NCBI RefSeq assembly: GCF_037076455.1
Contig: NZ_AP028679.1
Location: forward strand, 3,921,501-3,985,500
Length of the DNA: 64,000 nt
Reading direction: 5' to 3'
DNA from: Desulfoferula mesophila
GTDB lineage: Bacteria > Desulfobacterota > Desulfarculia > Desulfarculales > Desulfarculaceae
Notes under the pieces: model-generated
What the model was told of the DNA's origin: nothing
Seen by the model: the letters and a program-made list of their open reading frames with translations, nothing else
Database searches by the model: none
Shown: positions 17,242 to 56,117 of the stretch, one piece after another
Position numbering within the stretch: position 1 is the stretch's first letter
Layout: each line of letters starts with the position of its first letter
Position numbers and translations under genes: made by a program

Positions 17242-20200
17242 ATGCGCCGCGCCTCGCTACTGTTCGCCTGCTGGTTGCTCTGGGCGTGCCTGGCGTGCTC
17301 CTTGGCCTTCGCCGCGCCTCCCGGCTACAGCGTCCACCAGGAGACCGGCCGGGCCTACTCCCTGGAAGTGCCGTCCCATTGGATAATCCGGCCCGGCTCC
17401 AAGGGCCGCACCGTGGTGTTTTCCGGCCCCAAGGGCGGCCCGGAATATCTCACCACCCTGAGCCTGCAGGTGGTGGACGCTTCGGCCTACCCCGACCTGG
17501 CGGCGGTATCGCGCGATTTGGTATCCCAGTGGTCGCGTATGCAAGGTTACCGGTTGCTGTCCGAGGAAAGGGGCTCCCTGGACGGGCAGAGCGCCCTGCG
17601 CCTGCTGGTGCGCTTCCGGAACCAGCAGGGGGAGGTTTTTGAGCGGGAGCAGTTCGTCTGCCGCAAGGGCCCCCACTATTACCTGCTGGCCTACACCGCG
17701 CCCCAGCGGATCTTCTCCCGAGGCCAGGCCTACCGCGACCGCGCCCTGGCCAGCCTGCGCCTGAGCACGCCCCAAGAGGCGCGCCAGCGGCAAGAGGCTC
17801 TGGACGTGGCCACCTATGGCCCAGCCCTGCTGGGGCAACTGCCGGGGCCGCTCTACGCCCCCTCTTTTGACAACGGCACTCCTCAGGGCAAGCAGGTGGC
17901 CCAGGTGCAGGCACGGTTGGTGGCCGAGTTGGCCCGCGCGGCCACGGACCAGGCCGGGGCGCAGAAACCGGCGCTGGCCGCCCTGGCCGCGCTGGGCGAG
18001 ATGCAGACCCGGCAGATGGCCCTGTTGGAAGAGCAAGCCGCCGCCTCGGAGCGGGGCAAGGCCTGGTGGGCCCGCCTGAAGCCCCTGTACAAGCTCCAAC
18101 TCAACTATAGTCTGGCCCAGGCGGCCCAGCGGGGCCTGGTGGAGGGCAACCTGGCCGGCCTGGGCAAGCCCGAGGAGGCGGGCCAAAGCCTGGCCGCGGT
18201 GCAGATGCTGGCCGGGCTGCAACTGGCGGTGAGCGACCAGCAGGCCTTGATCCTGCGCGAGAACCAGGAGGTATGGACCACCTCCATCAACCTTTGGGAC
18301 CAGCTTAGCGGCGACACGGCGCTGCCCGACGCCTTCCGTCTGCGCCTGGCCCAGCTCAACCAGCGCCAGCGCGAACTGGCCCTGGACCTGGGCCGGGCCA
18401 CCCTGGCGGCCAACGCCGCCCAGGCCCGCGACGTGCTGGTGGTCAGGGCCATGGAGCTTTTCGCCCGCGAAGTGACCAAGGCCTACGGCGCGGCGGTGGG
18501 CGAGGCCATCCCCCGCCTGCGGGCCCAGGCCGCCGAGTTGGCCAAGACCCGCCCCGGCGACCCGGCGGCCCAGGCGGTAAGCGCCACCCTGGACAACCTG
18601 GAGCGCGCCGCCGCCCAGATCAAGAAGGCCCAGGCCACCCCCTCCCTGGGAGATCGCCTGGCCCAATCCTTGACCCCTTCCCCGGCCTGGGCCGGGGCGC
18701 TGCAGTTCGCCCAGGACTTCGGCGAAAACCTGCTGTGGTCGGTGGCCCTGGCGGGCAAGGCCACGGCCAACGCAGGGCGCTTCGTGGCCAGCGGCCTGGA
18801 GACCAGCACCAAGCAGGTGACCAACTATCTGAGCTTCGCCGCCTACAGCCCTCTCAAGGTCACCTCCAATCCCCAGAAGCTGGTGGGCAGCGTCGATGAA
18901 ATAATCAAGAGCAACCCCAAAATGGCCAAGCACCGCCAGGTGATCGAAGCGCGCCTGACGGCCATGGCCCGGGGCCACGCGGCCAGCGACCTCCAGGGTT
19001 ACCTGCAGCTCAAAAAACAGACCACCGACGCGGCGGTGGCCGAGTACGCCAAGGGGCAGTACGGGGTGCGGGCCCTCAAGACGGGGGTGGAATACCTGGA
19101 CCAGGTCAAGACCATGAAGGTGGAACCGGCGGCCAAGTGGGTGGCCGATCGGGTGACCAAGGGGCTCTTGGGCAACCAGGTGGGCGGCTACCTGAGCCCG
19201 CTGGCCCAGGGCGCGGCCTCGCTTCTGGCGGGCACCGCCTACAAGGTGGTGGCCGATTTGCCCAAAAACGTCATGGTGATCATAAACCCCCAGACCAGCT
19301 ACGCCGAAAAGACCCAGGCCACCTATGAACTGGTCGGTAGCCTGGGGGCCTCGGCCTTGTGCTACACCGGCACCGCCACGGCCGTGGTCGGCAAGCTGGC
19401 CCCCGGCGTGGCCTCGGGGGCGGCCTGGGCCTACAAGGCCGGGGCCGGTCTGGTGAGCCGCATGATGCCCGCCGGAGTCAAGGCCGCCTCCCAGGCGGCC
19501 GCCAAGATGGTGGTGCCGGTGGCCCAGAGCGCGGGGCGTCAGGTGGCCCGGGAAGTGGCCGCCCTGCTGCCCGCCGAGGCCCAGGCGGTCAAGTACGCGG
19601 TCACCGGGATACAGCAAGGCGTGAGCAAGCTCACGGCCATGGCCGCCCAGCCGGTGGGGGCCACCTTCGCCGCCGAGACCAAGGCCATGGTCAGCGAGGT
19701 GGTCAAGAACGTGACCATGAGCGGAACCCGCAGTGAGATACTCAAGGCCTTTGCCGGCAACTTCGCCATCAAGCCCCTGTTGGAGGGCGCGGCCAACGAC
19801 AGCTTCTCCGGCAACGTGCTGCTGCCCGTGTTGCAGGCGGCCGAGGCCGCGGCCACCGCCCCGCCGCAATCCACCGGAGTGAGTCGCAGCTTCAACAACT
19901 CCAACCTGGTCAAGAACGACCAGAACAAAATAGAGCGCTCTTTCAACAACGACAACCTGGTCAAGGCCGGCCAAGGATTCGAGACCAATGCGGCCACCGG
20001 GGCAAACAAGGCCGAAGACAAGCAGGCGACCGCCCCAAAGGCCGAAACCCCGCCAGCTAAAAAAGCCAAGCCCCGCCAGGAAACCCCGGAAGAGCGCAAG
20101 GCTCGGCGCGACGCGCTCATGGCCAAGGCCAAGCGCCTGACCGCCCGCGGGGACAACCCGGTGTACGGCGAGCAGAAGGTGGACTCCACGGCGGTGATCC

Positions 20201-20769
20201 CCGAGACCTGCACCATCGACACCGTGTCCTGGCACTCCAAGTACCCGGAGTACAAATGGTCGGCCATCTACTATGTCCGGGGAGGCCAGGTCACCGCCAC
20301 CACCAACAACACCCACAGCTTCCAAAAGTGGTGCAACGAAAACTGGTGCTGCACCCCCCAGCGCACCACCGGCACCTTCAGCGGCAGCCTGATGAACAAC
20401 GTCATCACCGGCACTTGGAACATGACCAGCCACCCCAGCCACTGTTGGAGCGCCTGGAACAAGAGCACCAAGGGAGCCGACGGCAAACACACCAGCACCA
20501 AGGTGCGTTGCGAGTACACCCAATCCTCCACCCACACCCTGCGCAACACCTTGACCCTGAACACTGGCGGTACCATCGAAGAAACCTACAGCGGCAGCGG
20601 CACGTCCAAAACCGTCTGGGGGCCCACCTGCTACGAAAAAGTTGCCGGCACCACCCAAACCCACTCCTGGACATCTTCCTGGGACGACCCCAAGATGGAG
20701 GCGGATATGCGCAAACCCATGATCGGGGTGTGGGAAATTCGCAAACGGCCCCCGGCCAAGGAGAAGTGA
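17242..20769 (+). CDS. Large secreted protein of unknown function with PsbP/DcrB-like N-terminus
   Basis: A 1,175-residue exported protein. Signal peptide 1-24 (...CSLAFA|AP). Residues ~28-175 form a domain with YSLEVPSHWIIRPG...VFSGPKGG and YYLLAYTAPQRIF, shared with the convergent lipoprotein at 22035-23018. Residues ~180-490 are Ala/Gln-rich and helical. Residues ~490-870 are hydrophobic and Ala/Gly/Val-rich, with possible membrane-active helices. A duplicated SFNN(S/D)NLVK motif sits near 884 and 901, followed by a Lys/Glu/Pro linker. The last ~190 residues are Thr/Ser/Asn-rich beta sequence with seven cysteines (WCNENWCC). I do not recognise the family. ATG follows AAGGAG. The TPR gene follows after 6 bases. 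Confidence 0.7.
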   Translation: MRRASLLFACWLLWACLACSLAFAAPPGYSVHQETGRAYSLEVPSHWIIRPGSKGRTVVFSGPKGGPEYLTTLSLQVVDASAYPDLAAVSRDLVSQWSRMQGYRLLSEERGSLDGQSALRLLVRFRNQQGEVFEREQFVCRKGPHYYLLAYTAPQRIFSRGQAYRDRALASLRLSTPQEARQRQEALDVATYGPALLGQLPGPLYAPSFDNGTPQGKQVAQVQARLVAELARAATDQAGAQKPALAALAALGEMQTRQMALLEEQAAASERGKAWWARLKPLYKLQLNYSLAQAAQRGLVEGNLAGLGKPEEAGQSLAAVQMLAGLQLAVSDQQALILRENQEVWTTSINLWDQLSGDTALPDAFRLRLAQLNQRQRELALDLGRATLAANAAQARDVLVVRAMELFAREVTKAYGAAVGEAIPRLRAQAAELAKTRPGDPAAQAVSATLDNLERAAAQIKKAQATPSLGDRLAQSLTPSPAWAGALQFAQDFGENLLWSVALAGKATANAGRFVASGLETSTKQVTNYLSFAAYSPLKVTSNPQKLVGSVDEIIKSNPKMAKHRQVIEARLTAMARGHAASDLQGYLQLKKQTTDAAVAEYAKGQYGVRALKTGVEYLDQVKTMKVEPAAKWVADRVTKGLLGNQVGGYLSPLAQGAASLLAGTAYKVVADLPKNVMVIINPQTSYAEKTQATYELVGSLGASALCYTGTATAVVGKLAPGVASGAAWAYKAGAGLVSRMMPAGVKAASQAAAKMVVPVAQSAGRQVAREVAALLPAEAQAVKYAVTGIQQGVSKLTAMAAQPVGATFAAETKAMVSEVVKNVTMSGTRSEILKAFAGNFAIKPLLEGAANDSFSGNVLLPVLQAAEAAATAPPQSTGVSRSFNNSNLVKNDQNKIERSFNNDNLVKAGQGFETNAATGANKAEDKQATAPKAETPPAKKAKPRQETPEERKARRDALMAKAKRLTARGDNPVYGEQKVDSTAVIPETCTIDTVSWHSKYPEYKWSAIYYVRGGQVTATTNNTHSFQKWCNENWCCTPQRTTGTFSGSLMNNVITGTWNMTSHPSHCWSAWNKSTKGADGKHTSTKVRCEYTQSSTHTLRNTLTLNTGGTIEETYSGSGTSKTVWGPTCYEKVAGTTQTHSWTSSWDDPKMEADMRKPMIGVWEIRKRPPAKEK

Positions 20770-20775
20770 TCAACC

Positions 20776-21492
20776 ATGCGCTACCCAACGCTAACGGCCC
20801 TGCTGGCCGCCGGGCTGCTGGCCGCCGCACCAGCCGGGGCCCAATGGGTGCCCAACCAGCCGCCCGCCGCTGCCTCTGAAAAAGCGCCCAGCGGCCAGGC
20901 GGCCCCGGCCCAAAGCTCGCCCTTCAACCTGCCGGAAAAGGGCCGGCCCCCCGCGGCCCCGCCCGCCCCGGCCCAGAGCCAACAGGCGGACAGCCCCTTC
21001 GCGCTGCCGGGCAAGACGGCGGGCTCCGCCACGCCCACCGCCCAACCTCCGGCTCAACCGCCGGCCAAGAGCGACAGCCCCTTCGCCCTGCCCGCCAAGC
21101 CCCCGGCCCAGGCCAAAGGCCCCAGTTCCCAGGCCCTGGTGGACCGAGGCGTGGCCCTGGCCCAGGAGGGCAAGCTGGACCAGGCCAGGGAGGCCTTTTT
21201 CGCGGCGGTGGCCAAGGACCCCGGCAACGCGGTGGCCTGGAACAACCTGGGGCTCACCCTGCGCCGCCAAGGCAAGCTGAAGCAGGCGGCCCAGGCCTAT
21301 GAGAAGGCCATCAAGGCCGACCCCTCCTACGCGGTGCCTTACAAGAACCTGGGGGTGCTTTTGGAAAAGGCGGGGGAGCGGGCCACCGCGGCCAAGGCCT
21401 ACCGCCGCTACGCCGAGCTGGCCCCCCAGGCCCCGGACGCCGCCACGGTGGGCAAACGGGCCGCCTGGCTGGAATCCACGCTTAAAAAATGA
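20776..21492 (+). CDS. Secreted TPR protein with SPFALP repeats
   Basis: A 238-residue exported protein. The signal peptide ends near PAGA|QW. Residues ~45-115 are Pro/Ala-rich and hold three spaced SPF(N/A)LP(E/G/A)K motifs. Residues ~118-225 carry about three tetratricopeptide repeats: ALVDRGVALAQEGKLDQA, VAWNNLGLTLRRQGKLKQA and VPYKNLGVLLEKAGERATA. TPRs imply a protein-binding role in the periplasm, most plausibly for its operon partner upstream, 6 bases away. The downstream lipoprotein begins 14 bases after its stop. Confidence 0.75.
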   Translation: MRYPTLTALLAAGLLAAAPAGAQWVPNQPPAAASEKAPSGQAAPAQSSPFNLPEKGRPPAAPPAPAQSQQADSPFALPGKTAGSATPTAQPPAQPPAKSDSPFALPAKPPAQAKGPSSQALVDRGVALAQEGKLDQAREAFFAAVAKDPGNAVAWNNLGLTLRRQGKLKQAAQAYEKAIKADPSYAVPYKNLGVLLEKAGERATAAKAYRRYAELAPQAPDAATVGKRAAWLESTLKK

Positions 21493-21506
21493 CGAGGAAA
21501 AATCCC

Positions 21507-21938
21507 ATGCCCGCAACCCGCATAACGTCCGTCCTGAGCGCTGTCCTCCTGCTGGTCTTTTTGGCGGGCTGCGCCGAGGTAAGCAAGTCCGTGCCCCAGG
21601 AGTGGAGCGCGGCCTTCAAGAACGGCCAGAAACGCTACGTGCTCACCAGCGGCCTCAACCTGCGTGAGTGTCCCACCACCTCCTGCCGCATCCTGGCGGT
21701 GCTGCGCCACGGGGACATCGTCATGACCACCGGCGAGAAGAAGGGCTGGTCCTACGTGGAGACCGCCTCTGGAGGCCAACAGGGTTGGGTGTCCAGCCGC
21801 TATCTGGGCAGCGACCCGGGCCAGAGCCCGCCGCCCACGACGACCAAGGCCTTGACCGAGCCGCCGCCCCTGCCCAAGGAGCAGTGGGGCGCGCCGGGTT
21901 CCACCCCGCCGCCGGTAAAGGAACAATACGGCAAGTAG
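21507..21938 (+). CDS. SH3-domain lipoprotein
   Basis: A 143-residue lipoprotein. The signal peptide ends in the lipobox VFLAGC, so it is acylated at Cys and membrane-anchored. The middle (VLTSGLNLRECPTTSCRILAVLRHGDIVMTTGEKKGWSYVE...GWVSSRYL) is a bacterial SH3 domain, a fold that often binds cell-wall peptides or mediates protein contacts. The tail is Pro-rich. I prefer ATG 21507 (after GAGG) to an in-frame ATG at 21489 that overlaps the TPR stop and lacks a ribosome site. Third gene of the secreted-protein operon. Confidence 0.78.
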   Translation: MPATRITSVLSAVLLLVFLAGCAEVSKSVPQEWSAAFKNGQKRYVLTSGLNLRECPTTSCRILAVLRHGDIVMTTGEKKGWSYVETASGGQQGWVSSRYLGSDPGQSPPPTTTKALTEPPPLPKEQWGAPGSTPPPVKEQYGK

Positions 21939-21956
21939 GCCCGGCCCAAAATCTAA

Positions 21957-22009
21957 GCGCGCCGCTGGTTCGGCGGTCGGGCGATGGCCCGCACCGAACC
22001 AGGGCGCGC
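21957..22009. terminator. Bidirectional hairpin between convergent operons
   Basis: CTGGTTCGG (21965-21973) pairs with CCGAACCAG (21994-22002). The stem is extended outward by GCGC pairs and inward by a GGGC/GCCC pair. It lies between two convergent stop codons and lacks a strong T-run. Confidence 0.6.
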
Positions 22010-39241: not shown

Positions 39242-41728
39242 TTATGGCTTGGCGCGCGCCTTGAGGCGCCGCAGGAAGGCCAGGTGATGCTCGCCGCCCA
39301 GGCTCAGATGGCGGTAGAGGTGCAGCTTGGCCGCGTCCTCGATGAACATCCACACCAGGCAATAGCCCCACACCAGGCCCACGTAGCTCCAGGGTATGGG
39401 GGCCACGATGATGCCCAGGCCCACGATGAGCACCGCCACCGTCTGGGTGCCCAACACGGCCAGCAGCAGCACCTTGGCCGGGTAGGGGCTCTTCCAGAAG
39501 GGCTCCTTGGTGCGCACCACCAAAAGGGTGAGGTGCCCGGCCACGGCCAGCTTGAGATAGATGAACGACTGCAACTGGGGAACGCTCAGATCCAGGTATT
39601 CGCGGGCGATGACCAACAGCAGGAAGGTCTCCACCACCCCGATGAGCCCCAGCGCGGTGGACAGGGTAAGCACCCGGCGCATCTCCCAGCGCACCGGATG
39701 GGGGTCCAGCCAGGTGTTGTCGTAGGCGATGGTCATGATGGGCAGATCGTTGAGCAGAGCCAGGAGGATCACCAGCACCGTGGTGATGGGGTAGATGTTG
39801 AACACCAGCATGGCCAGCACCACGAAGAACATGATGCGGATCGTCTCGGTGATGCGGTAGATGGCGTAGGAGTTCATGCGCTCGAAGATCTTGCGCGCCT
39901 CCTCCACCGCCCGGATGATCACCGACAGCCCCGGCGCGGTGAGCACCAGCGAAGCCGCCGCCCGGGCCGCGTTGGTGGCCCCGGACACCGCCACCCCCAC
40001 GTCGGCCTGCTTGAGGGCCGGGGCGTCGTTGACCCCGTCGCCGGTCATGGCCACCAGGTGGCCCAGGCGCTGAAGCGCCTTGACGATGCCGAACTTGTGC
40101 TCCGGGAAGACCTGGGCGTAGCCCTCGGCCCGTTCCACCTTTTCCCCCAGCCCCTGGGGCGGATCGGCCGGGTCCACCCCCTCGGCGAACAGCTCCTGGG
40201 CCACCTGGATTTCCTGGCCCATGCCCAGTTGGCGGGCTATCTCCTTGGCGATGGCCTGGTTGTCGCCGGTGACCATCTTCACGTCGATGCCATGCTCCCC
40301 GGCCTGGCGAATGGTCTCGGCCGAGTCGTCGCGGGGCGGGTCGTACAAGGGCAACAGCCCCAGGAAGCGCCACTTGCCGTCCTCGTCCGCGCGGGCCACC
40401 CCCAGGGTGCGGTAGCCCTTGGCGGCCGCGGCCTCCACCACCTCATCGGCCCTTTGGCTATCCGCCCCGGTCAGGCCGCAGAGCTGGGCGATCACCTGGG
40501 GAGCGCCCTTGGTGCACTTGAAGCTGTGGCCCTCGCGGCTCAGGGTGGCCTCGGTGCGCTTGCTCACCGGGTCGAAGGGCACGAACGCGTCCTGCCGGTA
40601 TTGGGCCAGGAGGGAGCGGTCCTGGAGCCCGCCCAGCACCGCGTCGTCGATGGCGTCGCGGTTTTCCTCCTTGGAGGCCAGGCTGGCGGCCAGGATCAAC
40701 TCCTGCTCGTCGGCGGCGGCGAAAACCGCGGGCTGGCCCAGGGTGAGCTGGTTCTTGGTCAGGGTGCCGGTCTTGTCCGAGCACAGGATGTCGATGCCCG
40801 CGATCTCCTCGATGGATTGCAGGCGCGAGACGATGGCCTTTTCCTTGGCCAACGACAGGGCCCCCAGGGCCATGGTGAGCGAGAGCACCGCGGGCATGGC
40901 CACCGGGATGGAGGCCACCACCAGGATCAGCACGAACTGGAACACCCCCAGGGCGCTGTCCCCCCGGAAAAGCTGGGTAAGCACCAGGATCACCGCCAGG
41001 CCCAGGCTTATATAGATGAGGTAGTCGCCGATGGTGAGCACCGCCTTCTGGAAGTGGGAGGGGGCCTCGGCGCTCTCCACCAGCTTGACGGTCTTGGCGA
41101 ACTTGGTCTTGTCCCCGGTGGCCACCACCACCGCCTGCATCTCCCCCTGCTTGGCCACCGATCCCGAATAGGCCACGTCGCCCTCGGCCTTGTCCACGGG
41201 CAGCGACTCGCCGGTCAAAGCCGACTGGTCCACGCTGAGGAAATCGCCCCCGAACAGCTTGAGGTCGGCGGGCAGGATGTCCCCGGCCCTGAGGCGCACC
41301 ACGTCGCCGGGCACCAGGTCCTCCGCGCCTATTTCCTGCCACTGGCCGCCGCGCCGCGCCCGGGCCTTGAGGGCCAGCTCGCCCTTGAGCGCCTCCAGGG
41401 CGTTGTCCGCCTTGCGCTCCTGCCAAAAGCCCACCGCCGCGTTGAACACCAGCATCACGCAGATGATGATCATGTCCGACCAGTGGCGCACCACCAGCGA
41501 CAACACCGCCGCCGCCTCGATCATCCAGGGTATGGGCCCCCAGAAATAACCCAGCAGCTTGAGCAAAGAGCTCTTTTTGCGCTCCTCAATGGCGTTGGGC
41601 CCCACCTGGGCCAGACGGCGGGCCGCCTCGGCGGCCTCCAGCCCCTGGGGATTGCCGCCCAGGCGCTCAAAGACCTGGTCCAGGCTCAGTTTTTCCGCGT
41701 CTTGGGATTCAAGATAGGTTTCCGGCAT
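39242..41728 (-). CDS. Plasma-membrane proton-efflux P-type ATPase (type IIIA)
   Basis: An 828-residue P-type ATPase. Order: N-terminal LSLDQVFERLGGNPQGL, helices 1-2, actuator motif SALTGESLPVDK near 160, helix 4 with VASIPVAMPAVLSLT (PVAMP is typical of H+ pumps), phosphorylation site CSDKTGTLTKNQLTL with Asp near 318, hinge MVTGDNQAIAKEIAR and MTGDGVNDAPALKQADVGVAVSGATNAARAAA, then six C-terminal helices. It expels H+ at the cost of ATP, generating a gradient or controlling cytoplasmic pH. ATG 41728 is chosen after GGGAG; an earlier in-frame start adds 17 unconserved residues. Monocistronic by its own terminator. Confidence 0.92.
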   Translation of the reverse strand: MPETYLESQDAEKLSLDQVFERLGGNPQGLEAAEAARRLAQVGPNAIEERKKSSLLKLLGYFWGPIPWMIEAAAVLSLVVRHWSDMIIICVMLVFNAAVGFWQERKADNALEALKGELALKARARRGGQWQEIGAEDLVPGDVVRLRAGDILPADLKLFGGDFLSVDQSALTGESLPVDKAEGDVAYSGSVAKQGEMQAVVVATGDKTKFAKTVKLVESAEAPSHFQKAVLTIGDYLIYISLGLAVILVLTQLFRGDSALGVFQFVLILVVASIPVAMPAVLSLTMALGALSLAKEKAIVSRLQSIEEIAGIDILCSDKTGTLTKNQLTLGQPAVFAAADEQELILAASLASKEENRDAIDDAVLGGLQDRSLLAQYRQDAFVPFDPVSKRTEATLSREGHSFKCTKGAPQVIAQLCGLTGADSQRADEVVEAAAAKGYRTLGVARADEDGKWRFLGLLPLYDPPRDDSAETIRQAGEHGIDVKMVTGDNQAIAKEIARQLGMGQEIQVAQELFAEGVDPADPPQGLGEKVERAEGYAQVFPEHKFGIVKALQRLGHLVAMTGDGVNDAPALKQADVGVAVSGATNAARAAASLVLTAPGLSVIIRAVEEARKIFERMNSYAIYRITETIRIMFFVVLAMLVFNIYPITTVLVILLALLNDLPIMTIAYDNTWLDPHPVRWEMRRVLTLSTALGLIGVVETFLLLVIAREYLDLSVPQLQSFIYLKLAVAGHLTLLVVRTKEPFWKSPYPAKVLLLAVLGTQTVAVLIVGLGIIVAPIPWSYVGLVWGYCLVWMFIEDAAKLHLYRHLSLGGEHHLAFLRRLKARAKP

Positions 41729-41849
41729 AATGCACGCTCCCAATCTCCTGTCCGGTATATGGGTTAATTTTATACCCACCGGGCAAGTGATGCCTAATCT
41801 GGCGCGAGGGGAGCGGGCGCGCGGGGCGCCTTATGTCGGTTCGGGCCGG

Positions 41850-42773
41850 TTAGGCGGGGCTGTTGCCGCCCACCGCCTTGGGCTTTTCCCCGCCCGGGTC
41901 GGCCTTGGCTGGCGGCGGGGAGGCCTTCAGGCCGCTGGGCGCGGGCGCGTTTTGCGTCAGGTCCAGGCGGCCGGGCTCCAGCCCCAGGGCCAGGCCCAGG
42001 AGCTGGGGATAGAGCACCACCCCGTCCAGGGAGGGCTTGCCTTCGCCGCTCAGGGTCTCGTGGGCCCACTTGACCTGGAGCAGGGTGTGGGGGCAGTCCA
42101 CCATCAGCACCTGGGCCTCGCTGGCGGCGAACTCCTCCAGGCGCATCATGATGGTGGCCAGGGAAAGCTCGGGGTTGCGCTCGCGCAGGGGGCCGCCGCA
42201 GCAGCGCAGCCGCCCCTGCCAGGGCACTCCCTCGGCCCCTATGACCTTCAGCAACTCCTCGATCAGCTTGGGGCCGTAGGCGTTGTCAAAGCCGGTGATG
42301 CGGCTGGGGCGCAGGGCGTGGCAGCCGTACATGGCGGCCACCTTCAGGCCGTTCAGGGGGGCCTGCACCAGATCCTCGAGTTTTTCCAGGCCCACCTCGT
42401 CGTGCAGCACGCTCTGTATGTGGCGCACCTGGGCGGTGCCCTGGTATTTCAGACCCTCGGGAGCCAGCTTTTCCTGCACCATGGCCAAAAGGTCCGGCTG
42501 CTCCTCCAGGAATTTCTGGGCCCGTTTCAGGGTGCCCAGGCAACACTTGCACAGGGTCATGAGCTCTACGCCCTGGGCCTCGGCCAGGGCCAGGTTGCGC
42601 GCCGCGGCCAGGATGAACAGCTCGAAGTGCTGGTCCCGCAGGGGATAGCCGCAGCAGTTGAACTCCATCTCGGTCAGCTGGATGCCCAGCTTGCCCAACA
42701 CCGCCCGGGCGCTGGTTTCATACTGGGGGGCGTAGCTGGGTATCTTGCAGCCCAGAAACAAGGCGTAGGACAT
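41850..42773 (-). CDS. Heterodisulfide reductase subunit B-like (CCG-domain) protein
   Basis: A 307-residue protein with two CCG domains. The first is complete: Cys9, Cys40-Cys41 (NCCGYPL) and Cys75/Cys78 (LCKCCLG), matching the CX30-39CCX33-36CXXC pattern that binds the noncubane [4Fe-4S] clusters of HdrB. The second has YGCH, LRCCGGPL and DCPHT, in which the last CxxC is reduced to one Cys. The tail from ~285 is Pro/Ala-rich. HdrB reduces disulfides at such clusters. Its ATG lies one base after the stop of the membrane subunit, so the two form a complex. Confidence 0.87.
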   Translation of the reverse strand: MSYALFLGCKIPSYAPQYETSARAVLGKLGIQLTEMEFNCCGYPLRDQHFELFILAAARNLALAEAQGVELMTLCKCCLGTLKRAQKFLEEQPDLLAMVQEKLAPEGLKYQGTAQVRHIQSVLHDEVGLEKLEDLVQAPLNGLKVAAMYGCHALRPSRITGFDNAYGPKLIEELLKVIGAEGVPWQGRLRCCGGPLRERNPELSLATIMMRLEEFAASEAQVLMVDCPHTLLQVKWAHETLSGEGKPSLDGVVLYPQLLGLALGLEPGRLDLTQNAPAPSGLKASPPPAKADPGGEKPKAVGGNSPA

Positions 42774-42774
42774 G

Positions 42775-44445
42775 TCAGTTCTCCCGGGCCATGGCGGCCT
42801 GGGCCGCCAGATAACGCAGCTCGTACATCACGTCGGTCACCTGCACCAGGTTGGGGCAGGTCTGCTGACACTCGTAGCAGGTCAGGCAGTTCCACACCAT
42901 GCGCGAGCCCATGGCTTCTTCCATGAGGCCCAGCTTGAGGCAATACATGACCTGGTGGGGCAGCAGGTCCAGCTCCTGGTTGGGCCATTCGGACATGTGC
43001 ACCAGGGGGCAGGCGTTGGTGCACTCGCGGCAGGAGTAGCACTCGGTGAAGCTGCCGGCCTGAGCCGAATGCTTGAGGGTCTTCTTGAACCCGCCGGTGT
43101 CCACCAAGACCTCATGGCGGCCGCGGCTGGGCTGGGCCGCCTGCTCGGCGAACTCGGCGATCTCCCGAAGCGGGGTGCCCAGGCCCTCGTCGGCCAGGTC
43201 CTGTCTCTGGGCGGTCCAGAGGTCGTGCAGGTTGATGCCCAGGGGGCACAGCCGGGTGCAGCGCTGGCAGCTGGTGCAGATGTAGGCGCCCTCGCGGGTC
43301 TGGGCCAGGCGGGCCCGGTCGCCCTCGCCGCCGTGGGTCTTGGCCGACAGCGAGGCCAGGCGCTCCGAGGGCAGGATGTCGTAGTTGGGTATCAGGCTCA
43401 TGGTGATACCCACCGAGCAGTGCACCGAACAGGTGCCGCAGTGGGTGCAGGCGTCCATCTCCATGGCCCTGAGGGCGGCGCGGGCCGCCGGGTTCATGCC
43501 CTCGCGCTCGGTGGCCGCGTTCACCGCCAGGATCACCGGGCCCAACAGAAGGTGCAGGAACTTGGTGAACGGCAACAGGGCCAGGCCCAGGAAACAGGCC
43601 AGGAAGTGGATATAGTAGAGGATCTGGGAGGCGTTGGCCTGATCCAGGCCCAGGGCCACGGGACGCAAAAGCACCGACAGGCCGTAGGAGGCGAAGGCGT
43701 GGTTGGCCGGGGAGTGGCAATCGATGCAGTTGTTTTCGTTGAGCTCTCGGCCCTGCTCCAGCAAATCCTGGTCAGAGCCTATCGCTCCCGGGGCGAAGAC
43801 CACCCCATAGTCGGCCGCCCACACCGAGCGCAGGGCCTTGAGTTCCTGGGGATCGTCCATCCCCGCGTATTCGTTGACCATACGGTCAAAGGCGTCGGAC
43901 GAGGTGATCTTCAAGGCTTGCAGGGCAAAGCCCGAGAGCAGGATCACGGCCAGCAGGGCGATGGCCACCCGGTCCCGGGCGCGGGTGGTCTGGCGCAGCC
44001 CGCCCACGGTGAGCCGCCGCAGAACGATGATCCCCACCCCGGCCAGCACCATCAGCCCCAGGACCTCGCGCAGCCACAGCCAGGGGTCCAGGGTGGGATA
44101 GTAGTCGCTGAACAGGGAGGCGGTTATCTGCTCGCCCAGGGCGTGCAACAAGAGCAAGCCCATGAAGCCCACAAACAAAAGGATGTGGCCCAGCCAAGCC
44201 AGGGCGCTGTGTTTGAGGGAGCGGCCTTGCAACAGCCCGTCCCACACCAGCCCCCGCAGCAAGGCCCCGATACGGGGGCTGAACACCGTGCGGAGCAGGC
44301 CGGAGATGGCGGCTCCCGCCCGTTTGGCGGCGGAATATTGCCGGTCCCGCGGATCCACCGATACCGTGAGCCAGGAATACGCCTTGTAGATCAGCCCCAC
44401 CAGGCAGATGGCCAAGGCGAGATATAGGCTTATGCTGAAAAACAT
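42775..44445 (-). CDS. Membrane Fe-S/heme oxidoreductase: cytochrome b, c-heme and four 4Fe-4S motifs
   Basis: A 556-residue fusion. Residues 1-310 form a NarI/HdrE-like membrane domain with about six helices and candidate heme b histidines (79, 87, 101, 280, 298). A periplasmic-type loop holds CIDCHS (Cys240, Cys243, His244), a covalent heme c site. The soluble part carries four CxxCxxCxxxC motifs, starting at Cys333, Cys390, Cys469 and Cys520, each resembling HdrC/DsrK-type ferredoxin units. With the HdrB-like neighbour this should pass electrons between the quinone or periplasmic pool and a cytoplasmic disulfide or similar substrate; direction is unknown. Starts after GAGGGG. Confidence 0.87.
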   Translation of the reverse strand: MFFSISLYLALAICLVGLIYKAYSWLTVSVDPRDRQYSAAKRAGAAISGLLRTVFSPRIGALLRGLVWDGLLQGRSLKHSALAWLGHILLFVGFMGLLLLHALGEQITASLFSDYYPTLDPWLWLREVLGLMVLAGVGIIVLRRLTVGGLRQTTRARDRVAIALLAVILLSGFALQALKITSSDAFDRMVNEYAGMDDPQELKALRSVWAADYGVVFAPGAIGSDQDLLEQGRELNENNCIDCHSPANHAFASYGLSVLLRPVALGLDQANASQILYYIHFLACFLGLALLPFTKFLHLLLGPVILAVNAATEREGMNPAARAALRAMEMDACTHCGTCSVHCSVGITMSLIPNYDILPSERLASLSAKTHGGEGDRARLAQTREGAYICTSCQRCTRLCPLGINLHDLWTAQRQDLADEGLGTPLREIAEFAEQAAQPSRGRHEVLVDTGGFKKTLKHSAQAGSFTECYSCRECTNACPLVHMSEWPNQELDLLPHQVMYCLKLGLMEEAMGSRMVWNCLTCYECQQTCPNLVQVTDVMYELRYLAAQAAMAREN

Positions 44446-44504
44446 ATGGTAACGCCCCTCAAGTTACTTTATACCGGGAACCCGACGCGTTTGCGTTGGC
44501 AATT

Positions 44505-44963
44505 TCAGCGGCGGCAACCTCCGCGACCCCCTCCGCCACGTCCTCCTCCACCGCGACAACCGCCTCCGCCCATGCCCCGGCCCCGGCCCATGCCGCCGGC
44601 GGCGGGCTGGGCGGCGGCGACAGCCTGGGTGGCCGTCTGGGCCATGTGCCCCTGTTCGTAGGCGGCCAAGGCGTCGGCCACCCGGCCCTGGACGCCTTGG
44701 ACCACCTCTATGCCCGCGGCGTCGAGGGCGTTCATGGCCTTGGGCCCCACCAGGCCGCTGAGCACCTTTCGCACCCCGGCCTTGGCCAGGTTCTCGGCGG
44801 CCTGGATGCCCGCCCCGGAAGACATCTGGCCGGCGGCGGTATTGTCCAGGGCGAAAACGCCTCCGTCATCGTCCTTGACCACGAAATAGGCGGCCCGCCC
44901 GAAACGAGGGTCCACCTGGCTGTCCATCGTCTCGCCCTGGCTGCTCACCGCGATTTTGGCCAT
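44505..44963 (-). CDS. NifX/NifB-family dinitrogenase iron-molybdenum cofactor-binding protein
   Basis: A 152-residue protein. Residues 1-105 are a NifX/NafY fold: MAKIAVSSQGETMDSQVDPRFGRAAYFVV and LVGPKAMNALDAAGIEVV are typical. Such stand-alone proteins bind metal-sulfur clusters. The last ~28 residues are a Gly/Arg/Cys tail (GRGRGMGGGGCRGG...GGCRR), found in some anaerobe homologues. It overlaps the Mrp stop codon by ATGA, so the two are co-translated, and is followed after 59 bases by the membrane Hdr gene. No nif genes are visible, so nitrogenase work is unlikely. Confidence 0.82.
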   Translation of the reverse strand: MAKIAVSSQGETMDSQVDPRFGRAAYFVVKDDDGGVFALDNTAAGQMSSGAGIQAAENLAKAGVRKVLSGLVGPKAMNALDAAGIEVVQGVQGRVADALAAYEQGHMAQTATQAVAAAQPAAGGMGRGRGMGGGGCRGGGGRGGGGRGGCRR

Positions 44964-45817
44964 CAGGCCTTCCTCTCGCCCAACATGTCCAGGGCCTCCT
45001 GGACCACCCCCCGGTACGGCGCGTCTTCGCCCCAGTCGCGCCGCAGGAGGCTTACCAGGCGCCCGGCGTCGGCGGCGGCCATCAACTTGGGGTCCCAGGG
45101 CAGGCGGCCCAGGAACTTGAGACCGGAGCGGGCGGCGGTGTCCTGCCCCCCGCCCTGGCCCAGGAAATCCACCTGGCCGCCGCAATGGGGGCAGACCAGC
45201 CCGGCCATGTTTTCCACCAGCCCCAGGACGGGCAAGTCCAGCTGGCGGCAAAAGTCCAGGGACTTGCGCAGATCGGCCAGGGCTATCTCTTGGGGGGTGG
45301 TGACCAGCACCACCTTGGCCCCTTCCACGTTTTGGGCCACGGTCAGGGGCTCGTCGCCGGTGCCCGGAGGGGCGTCGATGATCAAAAAGTCAAGGGCTCC
45401 CCAGGTAACGTCGCCCATGAGCTGGCGGATCACCCCGATCTTCATGGGGCCCCGCCAGATGACCGAGGCCTCCTTGTCGGGCATCAACAGTTCCACGCTG
45501 ATGACCTTAAGGCCCTCGTCGATGATCACCGGTTTGATGAGTTGCTCGTCCGTCAGGACTTCGGCGTGGCCCGCTATGCCCAGCATGCGCGGAATGGAAG
45601 GCCCGTGCAAGTCCACATCCAACAGGCCCACCCGGTAGCCGGCCAGGGACAGGCCCACGGCCAACTCGGCGGCCACGGTGGACTTGCCCACACCGCCCTT
45701 GCCGCTCATTACCACCAATTTGTGCCTGATGTCGGCGAGGTTTCGGGTGAGGCGTTGATCCAGAGGATCTATTCCAGGTTCCGGACCCGGAGGCGGGGCT
45801 GAGGTAGCTTGGCTCAT
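44963..45817 (-). CDS. mrp: Mrp/NBP35-family Fe-S cluster carrier ATPase
   Basis: A 284-residue P-loop NTPase. The deviant Walker A SGKGGVGKST is at residues 38-47, followed by LLDVDLHGPSIPRM, IDAPPGTGDEPLTV and VENMAGLVCPHCGG. The two cysteines of CPHC bridge a [4Fe-4S] cluster in the dimer. It delivers clusters to apo-enzymes, here most plausibly to the multi-cluster Hdr-like proteins in the same operon. An N-terminal DUF59 domain is absent. A TATAAT-like box on the minus strand (45896-45891), followed by an 8-bp GC hairpin (45847-45871), may mark its promoter and leader. Confidence 0.92.
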   Translation of the reverse strand: MSQATSAPPPGPEPGIDPLDQRLTRNLADIRHKLVVMSGKGGVGKSTVAAELAVGLSLAGYRVGLLDVDLHGPSIPRMLGIAGHAEVLTDEQLIKPVIIDEGLKVISVELLMPDKEASVIWRGPMKIGVIRQLMGDVTWGALDFLIIDAPPGTGDEPLTVAQNVEGAKVVLVTTPQEIALADLRKSLDFCRQLDLPVLGLVENMAGLVCPHCGGQVDFLGQGGGQDTAARSGLKFLGRLPWDPKLMAAADAGRLVSLLRRDWGEDAPYRGVVQEALDMLGERKA

Positions 45818-50764: not shown

Positions 50765-51577
50765 ATGCTACTCATCGAAGACCTGCAAGTGGAGCTTTCG
50801 GGCAAGCTCTTGCTGCGCCACGTAGACCTGGAGATCAAGCCCGGCGAGACCCACGTGCTCTTCGGGCCCAACGGCTCGGGCAAGACCTCGCTGCTCATGA
50901 CCATCCTGGGCATGCCCGGCTACATCGTCAAGCACGGGCGCATCGTGTTCAAGGGCGAGGACATCACCCACATGCCCATCCACGAGCGGGCCCAACTGGG
51001 CATCGGCATGGCCTTTCAGCGCCCCCCCACCATCCACGGCCTCAAGACCCGCCAGATGGTGGGCATCTGCGCCCACGGCCGCGAGGTGGACGTGGAGGGT
51101 ATGGCCGAGGAGGTGAACTTCAGCCACTTTTTGGGCCGCGAGGTCAACGCCGGGCTCTCCGGCGGGGAGATCAAGCGCTCGGAGCTGTTGCAGCTCATGG
51201 CCCAAAACCCGGACCTGATGCTCTTCGACGAGCCCGAATCCGGGGTGGACATGGAGAACATGCACCTGGTGGGGGCCACCATCGCCCACCTGCTGCAAAA
51301 GGACAAGGCCGTCTACCACGCCAACGGCGCCTCCATCGCCGACAGCCGGCGCAAGCGCACCAAGATGGGCCTGATCATCACCCATACCGGCTACATCCTG
51401 GACTACCTGGAGGCCGACTCGGGCCACGTGCTCTACAACGGCATCCTGTCCTGCCCCTCCAACCCCCGCGAGATCCTGCGCTGCGTGGCCCAAAACGGCT
51501 ACCAGGAGTGCGTGCGCTGCGTGGTGCCCCCCAGCGAGCACCTGCTGCAGGAACTGCCCGTTATCAGCCAGGATTAG
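50765..51577 (+). CDS. sufC: Fe-S cluster assembly ATPase SufC (SmsC)
   Basis: A 270-residue ABC-type ATPase: Walker A GPNGSGKTS near 34, Q-loop AFQRPPTI, signature LSGGEIKRSELLQL near 130, and Walker B LMLFDEPESGVDMENM, whose ESGVD is typical of SufC. The C-terminal ~25 residues after the H-loop hold CRCVVPPSEH. It powers scaffold changes of SufB during Fe-S cluster synthesis. The scaffold gene follows after 15 bases. No sufD, sufS or sufU is adjacent, matching the two-gene SMS arrangement. Confidence 0.9.
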   Translation: MLLIEDLQVELSGKLLLRHVDLEIKPGETHVLFGPNGSGKTSLLMTILGMPGYIVKHGRIVFKGEDITHMPIHERAQLGIGMAFQRPPTIHGLKTRQMVGICAHGREVDVEGMAEEVNFSHFLGREVNAGLSGGEIKRSELLQLMAQNPDLMLFDEPESGVDMENMHLVGATIAHLLQKDKAVYHANGASIADSRRKRTKMGLIITHTGYILDYLEADSGHVLYNGILSCPSNPREILRCVAQNGYQECVRCVVPPSEHLLQELPVISQD

Positions 51578-51592
51578 CAAGGAACAGCAAGC

Positions 51593-52819
51593 ATGGCCGA
51601 TCAAAACCAGTTGCAGCAACGGGCCCTGGCGGCCCGCGAGAAAACCGCCGCCATCGGGGCGGATTTGGATTTGAGCTCCTACGAAAAGCACGCGGCCACC
51701 CACCAGGCCCTGGCCGAGGAGGAGCTTTGCACCCTGCCCGCCCAGGAGCAGCAGGACCTGCTGTTGTCCGGGGTGGATGTGAGCGGCAAGGACCGGGGCG
51801 GCACCTTCATCATGAAGGACGCCTCGCCCCTGCACTGTTCCAGCCACCAGGAGGGGGTGGAGGTGCTGCCCCTCAAGAAGGCCCTGGAGGTGCATCCCTG
51901 GCTCTGGGACTATTACTGGAAGCTGGTGGAGGTGGACGCGGACAAGTACACCGCCGCCGCCCAGTTGGATCTTCACGACGGCTACATGATCCGGGCCCTG
52001 CCCGGGGCCAAGGCCATCCATCCCATCCAGGCCTGCCTGTACATGGACCAGGACAACATCCAGCAGAACGTGCACAACATCATCATCGCCGAGGAAGGGG
52101 CGGAGCTGCACATCATCAGCGGCTGCGCCACCAGCCCCCATCTCAAAAAGGGCCTCCACGTGGGGATCAGCGAGTTTTTCGTCAAGAAAAACGCCAAGCT
52201 GTCCTTCACCATGATCCACAACTGGTCCGAAGGGGTGGCGGTGCGCCCCCGCTCGGTGGCCACGGTGGACGAAGGCGGCCTGTATCTGTCCAACTACGTG
52301 TGCATGCGTCCGGTGAACAGCCTACAGATGTACCCCACCTGTCACCTGAACGGCCCGAACGCCGTGGGCCGCTTCTACTCCATATTGGTGGGCTCGCCCA
52401 CCACCGACATCGACGCCGGGGGGCGGGTGATCCTCAACCACCCCGGCTGCCGGGCCGAGGTGGTGAGCCGGGCCATAACCAACGGCGGCAAGATCATGGC
52501 TAGGGGCCATCTGGTGGGCAAGGCGCCGGAGATCAAGGCCCACCTGGAGTGCCGAGGCCTGATCCTGGGCGGCGGGGCCATGCTGGCCGCGCCCTTCCTG
52601 GACGGCTTCGTGGACGGGGTGGAGATGAGCCACGAGGCGGCGGTGGGCAAGATCGCCCAGGACGAGATCAACTACCTCATGGCCCGCGGCCTCAGCGAGG
52701 ACGAGGCCACCGCCACCATCGTGCGCGGTTTCCTTAGCGTGGACATCCCCGGCCTGCCCCCCCAGCTCCAGGCCGAGATCGACAAGGCCATCAACGCCAC
52801 CGACGAGCACGGCATGTAG
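51593..52819 (+). CDS. sufB: Fe-S cluster assembly scaffold SufB (SmsB)
   Basis: A 408-residue SufB/SufD-type protein with the beta-helix core (QQNVHNIIIAEEGAELHIISGCA, SFTMIHNWSEGVAVRPRS, INHPGCRAEVVSRAIT-like segment). It also has the closing EMSHEAAVGKIAQDEINYLMARGLSEDEA, the SufC-binding helices with the conserved glutamate/histidine. A short N-terminal helical region replaces the long one of Suf systems. It forms the scaffold with the SufC ATPase; lack of sufD implies a SufB homodimer. Confidence 0.88.
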   Translation: MADQNQLQQRALAAREKTAAIGADLDLSSYEKHAATHQALAEEELCTLPAQEQQDLLLSGVDVSGKDRGGTFIMKDASPLHCSSHQEGVEVLPLKKALEVHPWLWDYYWKLVEVDADKYTAAAQLDLHDGYMIRALPGAKAIHPIQACLYMDQDNIQQNVHNIIIAEEGAELHIISGCATSPHLKKGLHVGISEFFVKKNAKLSFTMIHNWSEGVAVRPRSVATVDEGGLYLSNYVCMRPVNSLQMYPTCHLNGPNAVGRFYSILVGSPTTDIDAGGRVILNHPGCRAEVVSRAITNGGKIMARGHLVGKAPEIKAHLECRGLILGGGAMLAAPFLDGFVDGVEMSHEAAVGKIAQDEINYLMARGLSEDEATATIVRGFLSVDIPGLPPQLQAEIDKAINATDEHGM

Positions 52820-54000: not shown

Positions 54001-54008
54001 TCTCCCAG

Positions 54009-54035
54009 TTAGCACTCAATGTCGGAGAGTGCTAA
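54009..54035 (+). promoter_or_regulatory. CIRCE element (HrcA operator)
   Basis: TTAGCACTC-N9-GAGTGCTAA, a perfect match to the CIRCE consensus, sits just downstream of the promoter -10 box. HrcA bound here represses groESL until heat or misfolding titrates it. hrcA itself is not in the window. Confidence 0.97.
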
Positions 54036-54118
54036 CAAAGCAGCTTAAAAGGCCCCGCAGGTTTGGGGCGGATTATTTTTAGCTATATCGGTTATTTAAC
54101 TTAGAAGGAGACGCACGC

Positions 54119-54406
54119 ATGAAAATCAAACCGCTGCAGGACCGCGTGATCGTAGAGCGGCTGGAGGAAGAGACCAAGACCGCCGGCGGCATCATCATCC
54201 CCGATTCCGCCAAGGAAAAACCCCAGCAGGGCAGGATTCTGGCAGTGGGCCCCGGCAAGGTCATGGAAAACGGCACCAAGCTGGAAATGACCGTGAAGAA
54301 GGGCGACACCGTGCTGTTCGGCAAGTACTCCGGTTCCGAGGTCAAGATCGACGGCAAGGAAGTCCTGATCATGCGCGAGGACGACATCCTGGGCATCATC
54401 GACTAA
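54119..54406 (+). CDS. groES: Co-chaperonin GroES
   Basis: A 95-residue co-chaperonin: [18 protein letters not shown], the mobile loop [18 protein letters not shown], and [27 protein letters not shown] at the end. It caps the GroEL cavity. An AGAAGGAG ribosome site is present. groEL follows after 61 bases on the same CIRCE-controlled transcript. Confidence 0.98.
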
Positions 54407-54467
54407 GGCGTCCCTCGCCCCCGTCTCATACAAAAATCAAATCCAGTTTGGAGAGGAAGATAGAGCT

Positions 54468-56117
<1,650 letters not shown>

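Follow-up and report, generated by a model that had tools for sequence, protein, structure and literature searches.

Genes at the locus

The window examined here is a whole stretch of 64,000 nucleotides from the genome of Desulfoferula mesophila (4.48 Mb, one contig), in which mrp, a NifX-like gene, a gene for a fusion protein and hdrB follow one another on the minus strand (Table 1). The fusion protein, labelled FUS, has 556 aa and joins a NarI-like two-heme cytochrome b, one CxxCH and four 4Fe-4S motifs of the form CxxCxxCxxxC (residues 333-343, 390-400, 469-479 and 520-530). The first two genes overlap by 1 base (TGATG), 59 bases separate the NifX-like gene from FUS, and 1 base separates FUS from hdrB; open reading frames and Pfam matches agree with the first-pass annotation on gene order, overlap, 59-base gap and the domains of the fusion and of HdrB. 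The Pfam models matched are CCG (twice) in HdrB, Nitrate_red_gam and Fer4 dicluster models in FUS, Nitro_FeMo-Co in the NifX-like protein and the NUBPL P-loop NTPase in mrp. A promoter and terminator scan gave three promoter-like sites (0.9 expected) and five terminator-like sites (3.4 expected), and is uninformative.

Several other features were observed in the window. The NifX-like protein ends in a low-complexity tail rich in Gly, Arg and Cys. A P-type cation ATPase (39242-41779) follows hdrB on the same strand, as it also does in two related loci, L065 and L066. About 5 kb from the operon, on the plus strand, an ABC ATPase and a SufBD-core protein (50765-52819) form a minimal SUF-like pair, and AT skew reaches 0.32 at 20001-22000 and 0.28 at 54001-56000, exceeding the remainder of the window.

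Table 1. Genes and protein segments of the operon, with positions in the window.
Feature	Position	Strand	Evidence
hdrB, two CCG domains, the second without its last Cys (T230)	41850..42773	-	Pfam; structure matches to HdrB (8rwn_B, 5odc_B); profile 4e-82
FUS, 556 aa: NarI-like cytochrome b, heme c loop, SdhB-like dicluster, HdrC	42775..44445	-	Pfam, alignment, AlphaFold model, profile, structure match
FUS residues 441-552: HdrC	42790..43125	-	Profile HdrC 7.9e-20; structure Z about 11
FUS residues 315-422: SdhB-like 4Fe-4S dicluster	43180..43503	-	Profile SdhB 4.5e-07; Pfam
FUS residues 1-315: five-helix NarI-like membrane part, two putative b hemes (H87, H101, H280, H298 invariant)	43501..44445	-	Alignment, hydropathy, NarI Z about 12
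FUS residues 183-247: heme c loop, missing in EtfD-like paralog	43705..43899	-	Paralog alignment; M189, C240, C243, H244 invariant in 61/61
FUS residues 240-244: CxxCH heme c attachment motif	43714..43728	-	Alignment
NifX-like (Nitro_FeMo-Co) gene, lineage-specific neighbour	44505..44963	-	Pfam, locus comparison
mrp (NUBPL/MrpORP-like ATPase), lineage-specific neighbour	44963..45817	-	Pfam, NCBIfam, ortholog search

Distribution and conservation of the FUS family

Relatives were sampled within the phylum Desulfobacterota, where FUS matches occur in 19 of the 21 genomes of the order at an E-value of 1e-40, in 20 of 63 of the class and, at 1e-30, in 51 of the 395 genomes of the phylum sample, a count of carriers that includes two genomes (G225 and G350) matching part of FUS only. 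The alignment holds 61 copies, namely the D. mesophila locus and 60 further loci; G014, G015, G017 (three places), G019, G062, G138, G172, G200, G225, G293, G308, G327 and G350 have matches that stand outside it, and L013-L017, being duplicates of five included places, were removed before counting. The tree comes from a quick search. The D. mesophila genome itself carries a second FUS copy, 49% identical to the first. This second FUS-hdrB pair (L064, G000:C1:3810000-3829000) lies near genes for the alpha and beta subunits of a 2-oxoacid:ferredoxin oxidoreductase, which are on the same strand with one opposite gene between.

The ligands expected of such a protein are kept throughout the family: the CxxCH (C240, C243, H244), H87, H101, H280, H298 and M189 are invariant in all 61 aligned copies, as are 15 of the 16 Fe-S cysteines, the sixteenth (C396) being Cys in 59. 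Because these ligands are kept, the motifs of FUS are not the product of chance. Within the loop that bears the CxxCH, M189 is the sole invariant Met, from which a His/Met-ligated heme c is predicted, with M189 as the candidate Met ligand, and cytochrome c assembly proteins are present in the D. mesophila genome. The members of the two His pairs are spaced by 14 and 18 residues, which resembles the arrangement in NarI. The two doubts attached to the first-pass annotation, that the CxxCH might vary and that the relatives might belong to a known complex, both fell away, as the motif is kept in every aligned copy and the scores for the NCBIfam equivalogs of Tmc, Hmc, Qmo, Hdr and MFR all stay below their cut-offs. 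In 57 of the 61 loci no more than about 150 bases lie between the FUS stop and the start of hdrB. Of the four loci without an adjacent hdrB, one lies at a contig edge (L101), one has a broken hdrB (L090), and two, L085 and L091, have none beside FUS; these last two belong to one genus. FUS-hdrB is a real, conserved and unusual module.

Architecture and topology of FUS

The AlphaFold model of FUS (pLDDT 89.0), the folds being based on 48 of the 61 alignment rows, was compared with known structures. Over residues 1-425 the best match is EtfD of Mycobacterium smegmatis (9ojn; Z 24.5, 332 residues aligned, 3.9 A), NarI is matched as well, and residues 439-553 match HdrC, in agreement with the profile searches, which assign the C-terminal part to HdrC and the segment before it to an SdhB-like protein. 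When the PDB was searched with the sequence of the NarI part, all matches were at chance level. Hydropathy gives five hydrophobic helices and, together with the positive-inside pattern of charges, would place the heme c loop on the outer side of the membrane and the Fe-S part on the inner side, so that the conserved CxxCH of this presumed c-type cytochrome would face the periplasm.

The heme c segment stands out in comparison with an EtfD-like protein of the same genome (L177), which is followed by an ETF-domain protein and aligns to positions 65-182 and 248-309 of the FUS model. Since the segment missing from this alignment is exactly 183-247, FUS has a front half of the EtfD type into which a predicted periplasmic heme c is inserted, and this half is joined to HdrC, with the CCG part as a separate HdrB.

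HdrB and the loss of a cysteine

The model of HdrB (pLDDT 91.7) has as its top Foldseek matches the HdrB of HdrABC (8rwn_B and similar), to which its profile also points; its score for the NCBIfam equivalog, 190.6 bits, is below the cut-off of 345. The last cysteine of the second CCG domain, whose absence had been noticed from the D. mesophila sequence, is indeed replaced there by Thr230. This residue is Cys in 39 of the 57 HdrB proteins scored, Ser in 11 and Thr in 7, and the 18 proteins without it fall into a single clade (SH-aLRT 100, quick tree) within the Desulfarculaceae that includes both D. mesophila copies; the loss is a derived trait of this clade, not a general one. The last Cys of the first CCG domain is kept in 56 of 58.

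The mrp and NifX-like genes

It had been proposed that Mrp and the NifX-like protein are dedicated maturation factors for the clusters of FUS and HdrB, and the shared operon order and tight spacing, with mrp kept beside FUS in D. mesophila and L065, L066 and L067, would agree with such a role. These four of the 61 loci are a single subclade. In G007 and G008, where FUS is 61% identical, and elsewhere, close mrp orthologs are found on contigs other than that of FUS, and G016, where FUS is 63% identical, has no Mrp closer than 46%. The D. mesophila genome encodes three Mrp-like proteins, and the product of the mrp studied here scores 354.3 bits for MrpORP, where the threshold is 450, its NifX-like domain being a separate gene. 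Because mrp adjoins FUS in one subclade only and its orthologs lie on other contigs, the idea of dedicated Fe-S assembly fails, and we regard it as highly improbable.

Operon company of FUS-hdrB in relatives

The neighbouring genes were taken from our own selection of open reading frames rather than from a gene caller, and cluster names rest on representatives. In loci outside the D. mesophila clade, HdrA (identified by NCBIfam HdrA2) belongs to the same-strand run of FUS in 20 of 43; inside the clade it does so in none of 18. Three Desulfobacterota loci (L103, L108 and L120) have HdrA, MvhD, MetV and MetF in the FUS-hdrB run. A conserved 4Fe-4S protein (c6) occurs at seven loci, some of which also have HydB-like, FAD/NAD or formate dehydrogenase genes. 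In L119, L121 and L122, of one genus, two FAD proteins resembling GlpA and GlpB lie upstream (domains tested on L122), the designation 'GlpAB-like' combining general FAD families (DAO, FAD_binding_2) with our own judgement; by the searches used, the genomes of these three loci are without MetV and CODH/ACS.

Across genomes, MetV is found in 46 of the 51 carriers and in 255 of the 344 others (p 0.013, uncorrected for kinship), a weak enrichment, and CODH/ACS in 40 of the 51 carriers against 18 of 29. As this co-occurrence is weak and confounded by kinship, it is not relied on.

Relation to known systems

EtfD/EMO, the ETF:menaquinone oxidoreductase, shares with FUS the order of a NarI-like membrane part and, after it, an SdhB-like dicluster. 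In EtfD/EMO the CCG domains come next in the same chain and the ETF genes are adjacent, whereas FUS adds the heme c loop and the HdrC domain, its CCG domains are in a separate HdrB, and no ETF genes adjoin it, the neighbours being mrp, the NifX-like gene and the P-type ATPase. The HdrBC part of HdrABC (5odc, 8rvu) resembles HdrC and HdrB here in sequence and fold; in contrast to that soluble system, the HdrC of FUS is fused to a membrane protein with b- and c-heme motifs, five hydrophobic helices and a NarI fold. TmcABCD, HdrDE and DsrMK likewise pair a cytochrome b with a CCG iron-sulfur subunit, but FUS has its heme c motif in the cytochrome b chain, HdrC and HdrB are separate, and the NCBIfam scores for TmcC (27.9 of 240 bits) and TmcB (28.9 of 735 bits) are, like those for Hmc, far under the cut-off.

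Further parallels come from descriptions in the literature. The genes HdrA, MvhD and MetVF found in the operons of FUS relatives are also those of the MetVF-HdrCBA-MvhD methylene-THF reductase of Moorella and Sporomusa ovata. In the accessible text of PMC9430772 the S. ovata complex is membrane-associated and its integral partner is not identified, while the portion available of PMC6895022 proposes HdrABC of Thermacetogenium as a link to quinone; in these excerpts both leave open the membrane-integral partner of the MetVF-Hdr enzyme. HdrF1-F3 of Desulfobacterium autotrophicum are described in the available part of PMC2702500 as a transmembrane part with HdrC and HdrB, beside glpAB or etfAB; F1/F1' is in two genes, F1 and F2 lie by glpAB, like L119, L121 and L122, and the difference from FUS, drawn by description, is that no heme c is mentioned in that part. 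The HotSeep-1 HdrA complex, as outlined in the accessible part of PMC10553843, has a protein that binds heme c and bears a CCG domain, and compared by description it unites in one protein what is divided between two here. No description of the FUS-hdrB family as such was found in the literature covered, most of it outside subscription journals, and the portions available of PMC5539420 and PMC13343851 do not describe it.

HdrA operons of the D. mesophila genome

Six full-length HdrA proteins are encoded in the D. mesophila genome. Around four of them (at 559, 1297, 1334 and 1904 kb), no CCG domain lies within 31 kb, and the neighbours are MetVF, MvhD or HydB-like genes (at L171, MetF, MvhD and MetV were named by inspection only). 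This is naturally read as meaning that the operons of the clade have been split and that FUS-HdrB still serves HdrA; the alternative supplier is an ordinary soluble HdrBC that lies beside another HdrA at L173. In the HdrA of L172, a Glu and a Lys align by manual count with E356 and K409 of 5odc_A, given in the accessible part of PMC9430772 as conserved residues of bifurcating HdrA. The HdrA proteins of L170 and L171 (1417-1507 aa) have GltD-like domains and resemble the Moorella type as described in the same excerpt. The genome also has a Tmc-like set (L174:5887-10017; G000:C1:1938886-1943016), in which a six-CxxCH cytochrome fused to a NarI-like part is flanked by two CCG/4Fe-4S proteins.

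Proposed function of FUS-HdrB

The reading that we favour, with confidence a little above even, is that FUS-HdrB is a membrane-bound HdrBC-type module between cytoplasmic flavoproteins and menaquinone or a periplasmic cytochrome c, which in D. mesophila serves the orphan HdrA operon or operons; the flavoprotein partner is probably HdrA/MetVF. On the order of the ligands, FUS is most simply read as a wire that joins the periplasm to the cytoplasm. The analysis shows the domain composition, the invariant ligands, the linkage to hdrB and the genes that accompany the pair in relatives; from these we infer which cofactors are bound, how and in which direction electrons would pass between them, and which partner D. 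mesophila would use. The periplasmic heme c would exchange electrons with two membrane b hemes, with a menaquinone site as in NarI or EtfD, and these in turn with the SdhB-like dicluster, the HdrC dicluster and the clusters of HdrB. HdrB would exchange electrons with a cytoplasmic flavoprotein, in relatives mostly HdrA (with MvhD and MetVF, or Flx/Fdh-like proteins) and occasionally the GlpAB-like pair; in D. mesophila it would most likely serve at least one of the four HdrA operons without HdrB-type genes. Electrons of methyl-THF (or of NADH or formate) might thus reach menaquinone or cytochrome c, or flow the other way: the analogies with GlpAB-like proteins and EtfD argue for flow from cytoplasm to quinone or cytochrome c, and autotrophic growth would need the reverse. 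An electron path between periplasm or menaquinone and a cytoplasmic partner, already suggested in the first-pass annotation, fits the predicted topology, the invariant ligands and the relatives; the operon company (HdrA, MvhD, MetVF, GlpAB-like proteins) and the EtfD-like architecture had been missed there.

Against the favoured reading count the absence of HdrA from the same-strand runs of the own clade, the soluble HdrBC of L173, which could supply the orphan HdrAs, the weak MetV and CODH/ACS figures, and the two loci without hdrB beside FUS. The absence of HdrA beside all 18 clade members would also suit a split quinone reductase of the EtfD/EMO type, in which the clade has abandoned HdrA, a cytoplasmic dehydrogenase donates directly and the heme c has a structural role or serves as a side exit; no structure matches better than EtfD, and the GlpAB-like contexts and the FUS paralog near the 2-oxoacid:ferredoxin oxidoreductase show other electron sources. 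Yet the C-terminal part and HdrB are by profile specifically HdrC and HdrB, and outside the clade HdrA is the most frequent neighbour, and we hold this explanation to be unlikely.

A thiol acceptor had also been suggested. A Tmc- or DsrMK-like complex would pass electrons of periplasmic cytochrome c or menaquinol through HdrB to the DsrC trisulfide, as the accessible part of PMC10553843 proposes for the HotSeep-1 complex; dsrA is present in 37 of the 51 carriers, D. mesophila included, and the first CCG domain of HdrB is intact. However, 14 of the 51 carriers are without dsrA, seven of them full-length carriers of at least 90% completeness, so that universal dependence on DsrC is rejected and DsrC is improbable as the general partner; moreover, no Dsr gene is among the annotated conserved neighbours, and a ligand of the second CCG domain is lost in the D. 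mesophila clade. We give this route little credence.

Within the favoured reading of a module serving HdrA, a more specific and tentative proposal, on the whole doubtful, is that FUS-HdrB is the missing membrane anchor of the bifurcating MetVF-HdrA-MvhD methylene-THF reductase and, in the D. mesophila clade, a hub shared by HdrAs. At the flavin of HdrA, electrons of methyl-THF would then bifurcate, some going to ferredoxin and the others along the transmembrane b/c heme wire towards menaquinone and periplasmic cytochrome c, and in this clade the module would be a free-standing hub for several HdrA operons.

The connection of methyl-THF oxidation to the membrane is a standing question for acetate oxidisers and acetogens alike. 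An HdrC that is integral to the membrane and has b- and c-heme motifs, and that shares its operon with HdrA-MvhD-MetVF in three loci of Desulfobacterota, offers a concrete candidate for the partner and makes the wiring of methylene-THF reductase testable. If the proposal is true, it would put the methylene-THF pathway in direct contact with periplasmic cytochromes, and through them with electron donors or acceptors outside the cell, and it would allow acetate-oxidising and autotrophic Desulfobacterota a reversible, energy-coupled passage of the redox step that is hardest in the Wood-Ljungdahl pathway. FUS-HdrB turns up in numerous sulfate reducers and related bacteria, and the membrane link so far missing for a carbon-pathway enzyme may be this pair.
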